Of a DNA stretch of 64,000 nucleotides, positions 3,326 to 59,621 are shown piece by piece. Made by a program: the position numbers and the translations under genes. This DNA comes from Deltaproteobacteria bacterium RIFCSPHIGHO2_01_FULL_43_49 (GTDB lineage Bacteria > UBA10199 > SPLOWO2-01-44-7), in contig MGRG01000008.1 in the NCBI GenBank assembly GCA_001798075.1, forward strand, positions 310,001-374,000. The letters run 5' to 3'. Under the pieces are notes generated by a model. It was not told where the DNA came from and did no database searches. It saw only the letters and a program-made list of their open reading frames with translations. Each line of letters opens with the position of its first letter. Positions within the stretch are counted from its first letter, which is position 1.

Positions 3326-3764
3326 ACTTCCTCCTTTTGATGGCTTTGAAAATTTTTCAAAACACATCGTTTTTTGTTAACGGTTAATCAATAAAAATTG
3401 TGTGAAAAGAATAGTGTTAGTGGTCAAGTTTTAGGCTTGACCACGACGGAAGCGGGCAAGGGAAGAGATAAAAGACGGCAAAGCCACGTCTTTTGATAGT
3501 TTAAAAGGCATCTTGAATTTAGAAATTTGGGTGACCATCATTTCCTTCTTTAATACTTTTGAGAAAATTGTCAATACTTTTTTGCAAAAGCGGTAATTCG
3601 AAGTGCCCTGCTAAAAATGCTTAAACAAATGATTGGAGCGGAGGGGTGGCCCGGAGTGTTTGTTGTGGGGTTTAGTTAGGGGCCCCCACAAAAATACGGA
3701 GGGACAGGACCCCGAAGCTCCACTCGACTTTTTCAAACATTTTTCACAAAGGCCGGAGAAGGGT
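3326..3764. other. Intergenic stretch with hairpin and 89-bp repeat
   Basis: No coding region is supported here. The stretch holds a perfect 9-bp-stem hairpin at 3420-3444 (GTGGTCAAG/CTTGACCAC, 7-base loop) without a T-run, and the 89-bp dispersed repeat at 3633-3721. Promoters for the minus-strand gene starting at 3325 should lie in the first ~80 bases but none is clear. Confidence 0.6.
3633..3721 (+). repeat. 89-bp dispersed repeat, copy A
   Basis: Starts TTGGAGCGGAGGGGTGGCCC and ends GACCCCGAAGCTCC. The copy at 28880-28968 is in the opposite orientation and differs at only three positions across 89 bases. The ends GGAGC/GCTCC are inverted, and an internal GGGGCCCCC adds symmetry. Confidence 0.9.
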
Positions 3765-5896: not shown

Positions 5897-7729
5897 ATGT
5901 GTGGAATTATCGGTTACATAGGCCATCGTGAGGCGACTGATGTTTTGATTGATGGACTCAAGCGCTTGGAATATCGCGGCTATGATTCAGCGGGGATTGC
6001 CGTTTTGAATGGTCGTGGCATCGAGATGGAAAGGGCCGAAGGGAAACTTGCAGCGCTGCAGGCAAAAATCAAAAAATCGAAGCCCCATGGAAAGATTGGG
6101 ATAGGACATACCCGTTGGGCTACTCATGGTGTACCTTCAGAGCGAAACGCCCATCCCCACCGTGTTGGCGATGTGGTGGTGGTTCACAACGGCATCATTG
6201 AAAATCATGCGGAATTGCGAAAACAGCTAATCAAAAAAGGTTGTCAGTTCAGATCAGAGACCGACACCGAAATTTTCTGCCATCTCATCCACTCAGAGCT
6301 CAAAAAAACCGATGATGTAGGAAAATCGATCCAAAAAGCCCTAGAGAAGGTTCGTGGCTCGTATTCATTAGTTGTTTTATATGGCAAGGAACCCGGGAAG
6401 CTTTATTTGGCAAAGCTCGGTTCGCCACTCGTTGTTGGGCTTGGCAAAAAAGAAAATCTCGTTGCCTCCGACATTCCAGCCCTGCTTTCTTATACCCGCA
6501 ATGTCGTTCCGCTAGAAGATGGCGAATTAGCCCTTCTCACAAAAAATTCTTTTAAAATTTTGAATGGAAATGGAAAATCTCTCTCAAAAAGGGTCAACCA
6601 TATTACCTGGACACCCCTCATGGCGGAGAAGGGTGGGTTCAAACATTTTATGCTCAAAGAAATTTATGAGCAGCCTCGCGTTGTGGAAGAGACGTTGATG
6701 GGGAGAATCCAGCCAGACAGTGGTCGTTTGATCCTGGAAGGTGTCAATAAGCTATTTGGCAAAAAAGGTTTTCCATTTAAACAAATTGCAATCATTGCCT
6801 GTGGAACCTCCTGGCATGCAGGTCTTGTCGGAAAATATTGGATTGAAAAATTGGCTCGCGTTCCTGTTAGTGTGAATTTGGCTTCGGAATTTCGCTATGC
6901 CGATCCGATGATTGGGCGTGATACGTTGGTGATTCCCATTTCTCAATCGGGAGAAACAGCAGATACATTAGCGGCAACTCATCTGGCCAAATCCAAAAAG
7001 GCCAAAGTGTTGGCGATCTGTAATGTGTTGGGAAGTTCTCTTGCCAGAACCAGTGATGCCACACTCTACACCCATGCTGGCCCAGAGATTGGAGTCGCTT
7101 CCACAAAGGCTTTTGTCGCACAGCTTACCGTTTTATATCTCATCACTTTGGAATTGGCCAAACGTCAGGGCAAACTCTCCAAAGAGGCGTTGATCACTCA
7201 ATTGACAGAGATCAGAAAAATTCCTCAGCATTTGACTAAACTTTTGAAGAGTGCAGCACACATTAAAGAAATTGCTGAAAGCTTGGTGAATGCCTCTCAC
7301 TTTTTATTCATCGCACGCGGTCCTCATTTTCCAGTGGCCCTTGAAGGGGCGTTAAAACTCAAAGAAATTTCTTATGTCCATGCGGAAGGGTTTGCTGCCG
7401 GCGAACTCAAACATGGCCCCATTGCTTTAATTGATGAAGGAGTGCCGGTTGTGGCCTTGGTCCCCAAGAATGAAACTTACGAAAAAATCTTGAGCAACAT
7501 CGAAGAAGTAAAGGCAAGAGGGGCCCATGTGATTGCCATTGGGGATGCCACCGACCGTGATCTTTCAGAAAAAGTAGATGATTTTATCGCCATTCCCAAA
7601 ACAGATTATTTACTCACGCCTCTGCTCTACGCCGTTCCGTTGCAGTTGTTTGCCTATTATATCGCCGATCACAAAGGAACCGACGTTGACCAGCCGAGAA
7701 ATCTGGCGAAAAGTGTCACGGTAGAGTAA
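5897..7729 (+). CDS. glmS: Glutamine-fructose-6-phosphate aminotransferase (isomerizing)
   Basis: 610 residues. The start is fixed by the catalytic Cys directly after Met ('MCGIIGYIG'); upstream in-frame codons are therefore excluded. The enzyme transfers glutamine amide nitrogen to fructose-6-P, first step of amino-sugar synthesis. The N-terminal Ntn glutaminase shows 'GHTRWATHG' and 'HNGIIENH'; two SIS isomerase domains follow, with 'CGTSWHAG', 'SQSGETADT' and 'ACGT'-type loops, then 'GELKHGPIAL'. The C-terminus 'DVDQPRNLAKSVTVE' is the canonical end. The last ~80 codons exist again at 8498-8743 with many synonymous changes and one amino acid change, so the 3' end here may have come from an integrated element. 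Confidence 0.96.
   Translation: MCGIIGYIGHREATDVLIDGLKRLEYRGYDSAGIAVLNGRGIEMERAEGKLAALQAKIKKSKPHGKIGIGHTRWATHGVPSERNAHPHRVGDVVVVHNGIIENHAELRKQLIKKGCQFRSETDTEIFCHLIHSELKKTDDVGKSIQKALEKVRGSYSLVVLYGKEPGKLYLAKLGSPLVVGLGKKENLVASDIPALLSYTRNVVPLEDGELALLTKNSFKILNGNGKSLSKRVNHITWTPLMAEKGGFKHFMLKEIYEQPRVVEETLMGRIQPDSGRLILEGVNKLFGKKGFPFKQIAIIACGTSWHAGLVGKYWIEKLARVPVSVNLASEFRYADPMIGRDTLVIPISQSGETADTLAATHLAKSKKAKVLAICNVLGSSLARTSDATLYTHAGPEIGVASTKAFVAQLTVLYLITLELAKRQGKLSKEALITQLTEIRKIPQHLTKLLKSAAHIKEIAESLVNASHFLFIARGPHFPVALEGALKLKEISYVHAEGFAAGELKHGPIALIDEGVPVVALVPKNETYEKILSNIEEVKARGAHVIAIGDATDRDLSEKVDDFIAIPKTDYLLTPLLYAVPLQLFAYYIADHKGTDVDQPRNLAKSVTVE
7484..7506 (+). repeat. 23-bp direct repeat at the boundary of the glmS 3' duplication (left copy)
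   Basis: AAAATCTTGAGCAACATCGAAGA lies in codons for 'KILSNIEE' of glmS. The identical 23 bases recur at 8498-8520, where the second glmS 3' end begins. The two define a unit of about 1014 bp and are candidates for an integration core site. (Sequence given split: AAAATCTTGAGC and AACATCGAAGA.). Confidence 0.75.
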
Positions 7730-8497: not shown

Positions 8498-8743
8498 AAA
8501 ATCTTGAGCAACATCGAAGAGGTCAAAGCGAGGGGGGCGCATGTCATTGCTATTGGTGATGCAACGGATCGTGATTTACCCGAAAAAGTTGATGATTTTA
8601 TCGCCATTCCCAAAACAGATTATTTACTCACCCCTCTTTTGTATGCCGTTCCTCTGCAATTGTTTGCCTACTACATTGCCGACCACAAAGGTACCGACGT
8701 CGACCAACCCCGAAATTTAGCCAAAAGTGTGACGGTGGAGTGA
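8498..8743 (+). pseudogene. glmS: Duplicated 3' fragment of glmS
   Basis: Encodes the last ~80 residues of GlmS in frame ('LSNIEEVKARGAHVIAIGDAT...VTVE'). Against the intact gene there are about 30 base differences in 246, nearly all synonymous; the one clear replacement is Ser to Pro in 'DRDLPEK'. It has no start region of its own. The pattern of synonymous divergence says the two copies evolved as functional genes in separate lineages and were brought together by transfer, rather than by recent local duplication. One of them is the displaced original end. Confidence 0.92.
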
Positions 8744-11438: not shown

Positions 11439-11462
11439 AAAAGGCGTCGGACGCCTTTTTGG
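11439..11462. repeat. GGCGTC/GACGCC hairpin repeat, copy 1
   Basis: AAAAGGCGTCGGACGCCTTTTT plus GG: a perfect A-rich-stem-T-rich palindrome. The same element with a C in the centre occurs inside ogt at 41558-41580. It has the form of a bidirectional intrinsic terminator, but here it does not follow a gene end, so its spread as a repeat may matter more than termination. Confidence 0.75.
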
Positions 11463-28879: not shown

Positions 28880-28968
28880 GGAGCTTCGGGGTCCTGTCCC
28901 TCCGTGTTTTTGTGGGGGCCCCTAACAAAACCCCACAACAAACACTCCGGGCCACCCCTTCGCTCCAA
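28880..28968 (-). repeat. 89-bp dispersed repeat, copy B (inverted)
   Basis: Reverse complement of 3633-3721 with three substitutions in 89 bases. It lies between convergent genes. Confidence 0.9.
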
Positions 28969-33847: not shown

Positions 33848-33855
33848 TGCAAAGA

Positions 33856-33899
33856 GAACCGGATACTTATTGCACAGTTTTGCAAATTGTATCCGGTTC
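33856..33899 (+). terminator. Hairpin behind the small membrane protein gene
   Basis: GAACCGGATAC (33856-33866) pairs with GTATCCGGTTC (33889-33899); an inner TTGCA/TGCAA pair extends it. It is followed by CTTTT only, a weak T-run, so it is a moderate terminator candidate. Confidence 0.5.
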
Positions 33900-33902
33900 C
33901 TT

Positions 33903-33955
33903 TTGCAAGCTGGCGTGACGGAGAGGGGGTGCAAGGGCTTCTCGCAGACGATTTC
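33903..33955 (-). repeat. Degenerate partial copy of the ~170-bp hairpin element
   Basis: CTGGCGTGACGGAGAGGGGG and the following TGCAAGGGCTTCTCGCAGACG follow the order seen in the reverse complement of 50344-50508 (CTGGCGTGGCGGAGAGGGTG, then GTCTCGGAGGC). Only one arm is present, directly before the full copy at 33969. Confidence 0.5.
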
Positions 33956-33968
33956 CTACATTTGTCAA

Positions 33969-34144
33969 TTTTGTTGCCGGGGTGGCGTGGGGCGATGGGT
34001 GCTGAAAAGCATCTCGGAGGCAATTTTATCAGCCGGGATCCAATGCCAAAATTGCCGAGAGATGAGCGGGCAATTTGGGTCGACCTAAATTGAACCGCGT
34101 CTTTTCAGCACCCGGAGCGCCAGGTAGCCACCCCGGTGACAAAA
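33969..34144 (-). repeat. ~176-bp hairpin element, copy 1
   Basis: Outer arms CCGGGGTGGC (33979-33988) and GCCACCCCGG (34127-34136), then GGGTGCTGAAAAG (33997-34009) against CTTTTCAGCACCC (34101-34113). The core has GGCAATTTT/AAAATTGCC pairing. The core is shared with 50344-50508, while the arms differ in sequence and keep complementarity. It sits between the membrane protein hairpin and the prfB stop codon. No protein-coding signal was seen in it. Confidence 0.85.
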
Positions 34145-34149
34145 TCAAT

Positions 34150-50343: not shown

Positions 50344-50508
50344 TTGTGAACTGGCTACCTGGCGTAGAGGGTGACGAAAGTACGCGGTTCTTTTTTGGGT
50401 CGTCCCAAAAAGCCCGCTCGTCTCTCAGCAATTTTAGAATGCTATCCCGGCTGAGAAAATTGCCTCCGAGACGCCTTTCGTCACCCTCTCCGCCACGCCA
50501 GTTCACAA
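50344..50508 (+). repeat. ~165-bp hairpin element, copy 2
   Basis: Outer arms TTGTGAACTGGC (50344-50355) and GCCAGTTCACAA (50497-50508) pair perfectly; then GAGGGTGACGAAAG pairs with CTTTCGTCACCCTC. The core has GCAATTTT/AAAATTGC and TCTC/GAGA pairing. The core sequence is shared with copy 1 (33969-34144), but the arm sequences differ with pairing kept. It begins one base after the ampG stop codon. Confidence 0.88.
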
Positions 50509-58562: not shown

Positions 58563-58628
58563 TTAACCAAAAGGTAGTCACTACCTTTCAGTAAATTCTC
58601 CCAAAAGGTAGCGACTACTTTATGGTAA
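58563..58628. repeat. Two GGTAG-CTACC palindromic repeats, copies 3 and 4
   Basis: Copy 3 at 58563-58595 (ACCAAAAGGTAGTCACTACC) and copy 4 at 58599-58628 (CCAAAAGGTAGCGACTACTT) are head to tail. They sit left of the HEPN/MNT pair; a matching pair sits on its right. Confidence 0.88.
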
Positions 58629-58631
58629 GGA

Positions 58632-59457: not shown

Positions 59458-59551
59458 CAAAAGGGGGGGTTAAATTGAGCCTTACGGCTCCATTATAGTT
59501 TTCGGCACCCCGTATACCCAAAGTTGCTTCCCTTGATAATTTTTTCAAATA

Positions 59552-59612
59552 TGCCAAAAGGTAGCGGCTACCTATTGGTTAAATTTACCAAAAGGTAGTG
59601 ACTACCTTATAG
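59552..59612. repeat. Two GGTAG-CTACC palindromic repeats, copies 5 and 6
   Basis: Copy 5 at 59552-59582 (CCAAAAGGTAGCGGCTACC) and copy 6 at 59585-59612 (ACCAAAAGGTAGTGACTACC), ending ten bases before the punA ATG, where they displace or contain its leader. Confidence 0.88.
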
Positions 59613-59621
59613 AGGGGTTAT

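Follow-up and report, generated by a model that had tools for sequence, protein, structure and literature searches.

A family of dispersed DNA elements across one phylum, with a conserved three-way junction and covariation that is almost strictly Watson-Crick

Integron attC sites combine variable sequence and paired arms with unpaired recognition bases, and the double-hairpin elements of Allomyces mitochondria are mobile multi-hairpin DNA located in intergenic regions. The attC site is recognized by its shape as folded single-stranded DNA (PMC6393395), and the repetitive hairpin-forming elements of sponge mitochondria have conserved stems and varying loops (PMC2800124). REPs, BIMEs, and REPINs, together with TnpA_REP/RAYT, form a further system of dispersed intergenic imperfect palindromes with bulges and short tags, often arranged as inverted pairs. 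A REP is one hairpin of 20-50 nt, conserved in sequence and bearing a GTAG/GGAG or CGTC tag, and in E. coli the folded ssDNA is the substrate of the REP transposase (PMC8266576, PMC3733652, PMC3116915). CGTC-tagged REPs have been reported without a dedicated transposase (PMC3733652, PMC8266576).

The element described here is likewise dispersed and intergenic, and it is an imperfect bulged palindrome often found in inverted pairs. It differs from REPs in its length (about 150-280 nt), its three-way junction, its arms without conserved sequence, and the absence of RAYT from several copy-rich genomes. The mitochondrial hairpin elements are its nearest relatives in behavior, as apparently mobile multi-hairpin intergenic DNA, but they are organellar and much smaller, and the stem and loop conservation of the sponge elements is the reverse of that in our element. 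Variable sequence, paired arms, and unpaired bases are shared with attC, but the element has neither an R-box pair nor cassette arrays, and its conserved part is the tip, not the foot. An integron attC site was rejected because RYYYAAC / GTTRRRY boxes at the stem foot were found in 0 of 66 copies. Like IS-derived MITEs, the element appears non-autonomous and has long terminal inverted repeats; unlike them, it is conserved in the inner fold rather than at the ends, and no clear target duplication was seen.

Structure and distribution of the element

We analyzed a stretch of 64,000 nucleotides (the window) from the Deltaproteobacteria bacterium RIFCSPHIGHO2_01_FULL_43_49 genome, hereafter the host genome (G000). 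The window contains two full-length copies of the element and one half copy, with the following features:

33965..34148, minus strand: full-length element, copy 1, at C8:343960-344150 of the host genome (fold, covariance-model search)
34127..34148, minus strand: copy 1, 5' arm of outer stem P1, TTGATTTTGT-CA-CCGGGGTGGC (fold)
33965..33986, minus strand: copy 1, 3' arm of outer stem P1, GCCACCCCGG-CA-ACAAAATTGA (fold)
34066..34098, minus strand: copy 1, hairpin A, tip GGTCGACC (fold and family alignment)
34010..34063, minus strand: copy 1, hairpin B, loop with ATCCCGGCTG and 3' bulge TCC (fold and family alignment)
50344..50508, plus strand: full-length element, copy 2, at C8:360353-360499 of the host genome (fold, covariance-model search)
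50344..50355, plus strand: copy 2, 5' arm of P1, TTGTGAACTGGC (fold)
50356..50359, plus strand: copy 2, conserved TACC bulge, reverse complement GGTA (family alignment)
50384..50417, plus strand: copy 2, hairpin A (fold)
50420..50472, plus strand: copy 2, hairpin B (fold)
50497..50508, plus strand: copy 2, 3' arm of P1, GCCAGTTCACAA (fold)
33903..33955, minus strand: the 3' half of a copy from another subfamily

Copy 1 lies between a membrane-protein ORF on one side and prfB on the other. Neither copy was matched in stability by any of 200 dinucleotide shuffles (z = -8.7 for copy 1 and -11.3 for copy 2). An earlier note on this DNA had described a hairpin element in two copies, and both are found at the places it claimed. 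They have core motifs in common, and the arms quoted in the note are correct, being different between the copies and complementary within each. The decayed partial copy it had reported is also real, as the minus strand is identical at 38 of 38 bases to the 3' half of L100 (G000:C8:202749). The outer stem in many copies reaches beyond the boundaries the note had drawn.

The fold common to all copies is a long imperfect stem leading to a three-way junction with hairpins A and B. In the CTACC orientation, the order is a variable outer stem P1, an asymmetric bulge, stem P2, the junction, and the two hairpins. After P1, one group has the bulge TACC and the other has TTCC (CTACC / CTTCC), and the corresponding GGTA or GGAA bulge is found on one strand and in part of the family only. 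In a large part of the family, the tip of hairpin A reads GGG[T/A]CGNCCC. The loop of hairpin B is ATCCCG or ACCCCC, and the conserved 3' bulge of this hairpin is TCC or TGC. Some unpaired bases are nearly fixed among 58 distinct copies, including one junction T (58/58) and a TC (53/58). P1 is frequently extended outward by further shells. Distant families within the phylum retain a recognizable core and have no common sequence in the outer arms.

The number of copies is far above the two of the earlier note. A blastn search returned tens of matches in the host genome (15 contigs, 2.23 Mb), and 11 full copies were aligned with MAFFT, from the core of which the covariance model R1 was built. 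With R1, 62 full-length copies were found in the host genome (E < 1e-9). In the genome collection that was searched, the phylum comprises one class and 46 genomes, 13 of which, across several families, have matches at E < 1e-6; a looser search (E <= 0.01) matched 14 of 40 phylum genomes. Four same-family relatives reach at least 90% completeness, and each of them contains 13-43 copies. G002 has 43-47 copies, G042 has 8, and G017 has 5. G000, G002-G005, G042, and G016 count as element-rich, and genomes of families f10 and f14 as element-free. By their match coordinates, about 12 of the host-genome copies belong to inverted pairs in which the plus copy precedes the minus copy and the cores are mostly 30-110 nt apart.

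Outside the phylum, 0 of 25 genomes matched the covariance model, in a run that included no positive genome, though the model scores strongly elsewhere. These outgroup genomes were reached via prfB relatives (about 45-57% identity, many phyla, and one 65% partial match), and their phyla were judged by record titles. No element was found in the neighborhoods of those prfB loci, in viral contigs (pattern scan), or in phages and plasmids (blastn). An exact-pattern scan of genome contigs, a collection from which near records may have been left out, gave no full-length copies, and Rfam gave nothing above a gathering score, only chance matches and one tRNA. To judge from these sequence comparisons, the element would have no matching RNA or repeat family.

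Other repeats were observed nearby. A separate hairpin, GAACCGGATAC..GTATCCGGTTC, lies beside copy 1 at window positions 33852-33900. The palindrome family AAAAGGTAGNNNCTACCTTTT has at least six copies, some in close tandem (window 28997, 58563-58631, 59550-59618, and 61918). The window also contains an 89-bp inverted repeat (3633-3721 / 28880-28968), 97% complementary with arms 25 kb apart, and a 244-bp direct repeat (7484-7727 / 8498-8741), 84% identical and 1 kb apart. In the host genome, TAA-AATCTTCTCCGRC is recurrent, apparently right after stop codons (e.g., L119, L121, L122, L097, L066, and L103), and TAA-AATCTTCTCCGRC and, further out, GGAGCGAAGGGGTGGCCCGGAG flank composite repeat regions.

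Covariation and the rarity of G-U pairs

The copies make up a family of dispersed DNA elements found across the phylum; they keep a three-way-junction fold, and their covariation is almost strictly Watson-Crick. For the 11 copies in the MAFFT alignment, which is independent of the model, RNAalifold gave 60 pairs, 33 of them doubly changed. A second alignment contains 58 distinct copies from 12 genomes; in it 93.2% of stem cells are paired and double changes occur in 52 of 53 pairs, although this alignment was fitted to the model structure and is thus biased towards pairing, and related copies are not independent. Doubly changed cells numbered 937, compared with 242 in shuffles, and when the pairing partner was slid by 1-3 columns only 41-49% of cells remained paired. 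Because of the bias and the relatedness of the copies, we place weight on the agreement between the two alignments, both of which strongly support the view of the earlier note that the folded form is what is conserved. A covariance-model scan of the genome and of relatives, as it had proposed, found further copies, and covariation is present.

G-U pairs make up 1.1% of standard pairs in the element, compared with 4.5% in tRNA stems of the host genome (28 tRNAs; Fisher p = 5e-5), and host-genome copies analyzed alone show the same pattern. A-C mismatches (50) are no rarer than G-U pairs (30) in the element stems. G-U pairs that are rare and no more numerous than A-C point to folded DNA rather than RNA. 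Copies are intergenic in every gene arrangement, with 13 between convergent genes, 13 between divergent genes, and 35 in tandem (n=61); 23 of the tandem copies are on the strand of the flanking genes and 12 are against it. A terminator or riboswitch was rejected, as there is no rule of position or orientation.

A structured RNA, non-coding or cis-acting, that occurs in many copies and covaries because of selection on the folded RNA would explain the conserved fold, the conserved unpaired bases, and the strong covariation, and the strand preference of tandem copies points in the same direction. We nevertheless consider such an RNA quite unlikely, since G-U is less frequent than in tRNA and does not outnumber A-C, Rfam has no match above the gathering score, 13 of 61 copies lie between divergent genes, and copies are mosaic, nested, and apparently mobile. 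The earlier note had left the choice between a structured RNA and mobile hairpin DNA. The near absence of G-U pairs, the lack of a gene-orientation rule, near-identical copies at unrelated loci, and empty sites make DNA a far better fit.

Mobility and candidate mobilizers

In G003, near-identical stretches were found at unrelated loci (239 bp, 99%; 255 bp, 98.8%; 219 bp, about 98%). Empty sites in relatives, which the earlier note had suggested looking for, are present at pilB/pilC and DUF721/Sua5 (gene names at insertion sites are our own reading of ORF translations). At pilC/pilB, the element is present in G003, and the genes abut in G000 and G004, so both arms arrived with the insertion. 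At DUF721/Sua5, about 676 bp in G003 hold two elements inside a 23-bp outer inverted repeat, and G004 has about 16 bp. Outer stems as target-derived inverted duplications were rejected, as the arms are missing at the empty site and recur among members of a subfamily and in different genera. The near-identical copies at unrelated loci, together with the empty sites, are the marks of a mobile hairpin, and from these static genome assemblies we infer that the element is probably mobile. We also note that at the pilC/pilB junction of G005 (L262), a TGGACC/GGTCC repeat hairpin is found at the site holding the element in G003.

Copies are also nested. L227 contains an unrelated hairpin within an outer arm, and a second hairpin repeat (..AAACCCTTCGGGTTTGCTTCGCGGCCCAGCAAAGCTGGGCCTTGACA..) is inserted in the hairpin A tip of L015, L026, L051, and L112 in the host genome. 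The same type of insert is found in hairpin A tips of G002 (L302 and L311), and thus in two genera. These inserts suggest that, in the cell, the tips adopt an exposed hairpin form.

The copies may instead be ordinary MITEs of one or more DDE transposases, with the outer stem as terminal inverted repeat and the inner fold incidental. Some subfamilies do have long inverted ends in common, such as ACCGACAAAAGCT..AGCTTTTGG in G002 (41 matches for this pattern, compared with 1 in the control), and the ends are missing at the empty site. However, terminal inverted repeats are conserved within subfamilies and not across the family; what subfamilies and genomes have in common is the inner core, and the ends vary freely yet stay complementary. 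No clear target-site duplication was seen at the two empty sites, where relatives are strongly diverged. An ordinary MITE is therefore an unlikely explanation.

Movement by a transposase acting in trans, as the earlier note had proposed, is plausible; its obvious candidate, RAYT/Y1, is absent from the copy-rich genomes G002, G042, and G017. The host genome has six Y1 genes of RAYT size:

G000:C12:121725, C12:79275, C2:13858, C6:40267, C13:2682, and C14:188652: Y1 genes L031-L036

If the element were made of REP/BIME-type hairpins mobilized by RAYT (TnpA_REP, Y1 family), these genes would be expected mobilizers, and the intergenic location of the hairpins, the GGTAG or GGAAG motif that one strand carries at the foot of the stem, and the frequent close, BIME-like inverted pairs would fit as well. 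Yet no element lies within 1.5 kb of any of the six genes (by coordinate comparison, the nearest is about 6 kb away), and at least two of the genes have different, short palindromes on their flanks (the CCAGGTACC type for L032 and AAAAGGCGTC[C/G]GACGCCTTTT for L035). Furthermore, G002, G042, and G017 carry elements and have no match to a profile of the host-genome RAYTs, and G002 has no match to Pfam Y1_Tnp either. On the absence of a Y1 match in copy-rich G002 and of elements near the Y1 genes, a REP moved by RAYT was rejected, and we regard mobilization by RAYT as having little chance of being correct. The RAYT-flanking palindrome types also occur in the window, at 11439, 41557, 41760, and 60450.

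Origin of the matched arms

One subfamily in G002 has a near-constant core and constant outer ends, and a GC-rich segment of P1 differs in most of its copies. Substitutions and length changes in this segment (arms of 12-18 nt) are mirrored on the opposite arm, and in 17 copies the arm-to-arm edit distance is 0.94 within a copy and about 6 between copies. The sole badly matched copy, L311, is a chimera with the 5' arm of one subfamily and the 3' arm of another. In the host genome, 10-nt arm segments have a distance of 2.9 within a copy and 6.0 between copies, and 0 of 2000 permutations were as low. In the closest copy pairs, two-sided Watson-Crick changes account for 38-56% of changed pairs, which exceeds the expectation from two independent hits; one-sided changes are about equally common. 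In L232, the right arm complements the left exactly, even at the CTTCC that is normally unpaired, and L012 is made of two 5' halves that meet head to head; strand switching or inverted recombination appears to have produced both. Mosaic copies have common outer stems and different hairpins A and B, so part of the covariation is also exchange of whole modules.

The same DNA element may owe its complementarity to selection alone, without arm-to-arm copying. We regard this as possible though rather doubtful. Asymmetric bulges and loops persist, which means that the structure is under constraint, but matched length changes occur within nearly identical G002 cores, the proportion of two-sided changes is high even in the closest copies, and L232 pairs bases that are normally unpaired. 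The element may also spread via a folded single-stranded intermediate in which one arm is resynthesized from the other, so that covariation would be made by a replication mechanism and not mainly by selection. We give this only a low probability; if true, it would be a chromosomal bacterial analogue of hairpin-primed replication, with the hypervariable, always-paired stem segment as its trace.

We believe that the copies are probably non-autonomous, dispersed, intergenic mobile DNA hairpins that are recognized when folded; the complementarity of their arms would be maintained in part because one arm is copied or repaired against its partner. The element would be recognized and moved as folded DNA, either a single-stranded hairpin or a cruciform, and a hypothetical enzyme acting in trans would read the junction together with its unpaired bases. 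While the element is folded, template switching or mismatch repair could copy or repair one arm from the other, and recognition would preserve the unpaired bases. We infer folded-state recognition and movement, with arm copying as a contributor to covariation; some complementarity surely also comes from selection or from the exchange of entire hairpin modules.

Covariation is the standard way to prove that an RNA is conserved. In this family, the covariation is very strong and almost purely Watson-Crick and is accompanied by mirrored length changes, yet everything else points to DNA. The family is a natural test case for distinguishing DNA-hairpin from RNA covariation, with the missing G-U pairs as the tell, and also for palindrome arms copying each other. 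It describes an abundant repeat of a poorly known phylum and may provide a lead to a mobilizing enzyme that reads a three-way DNA junction.
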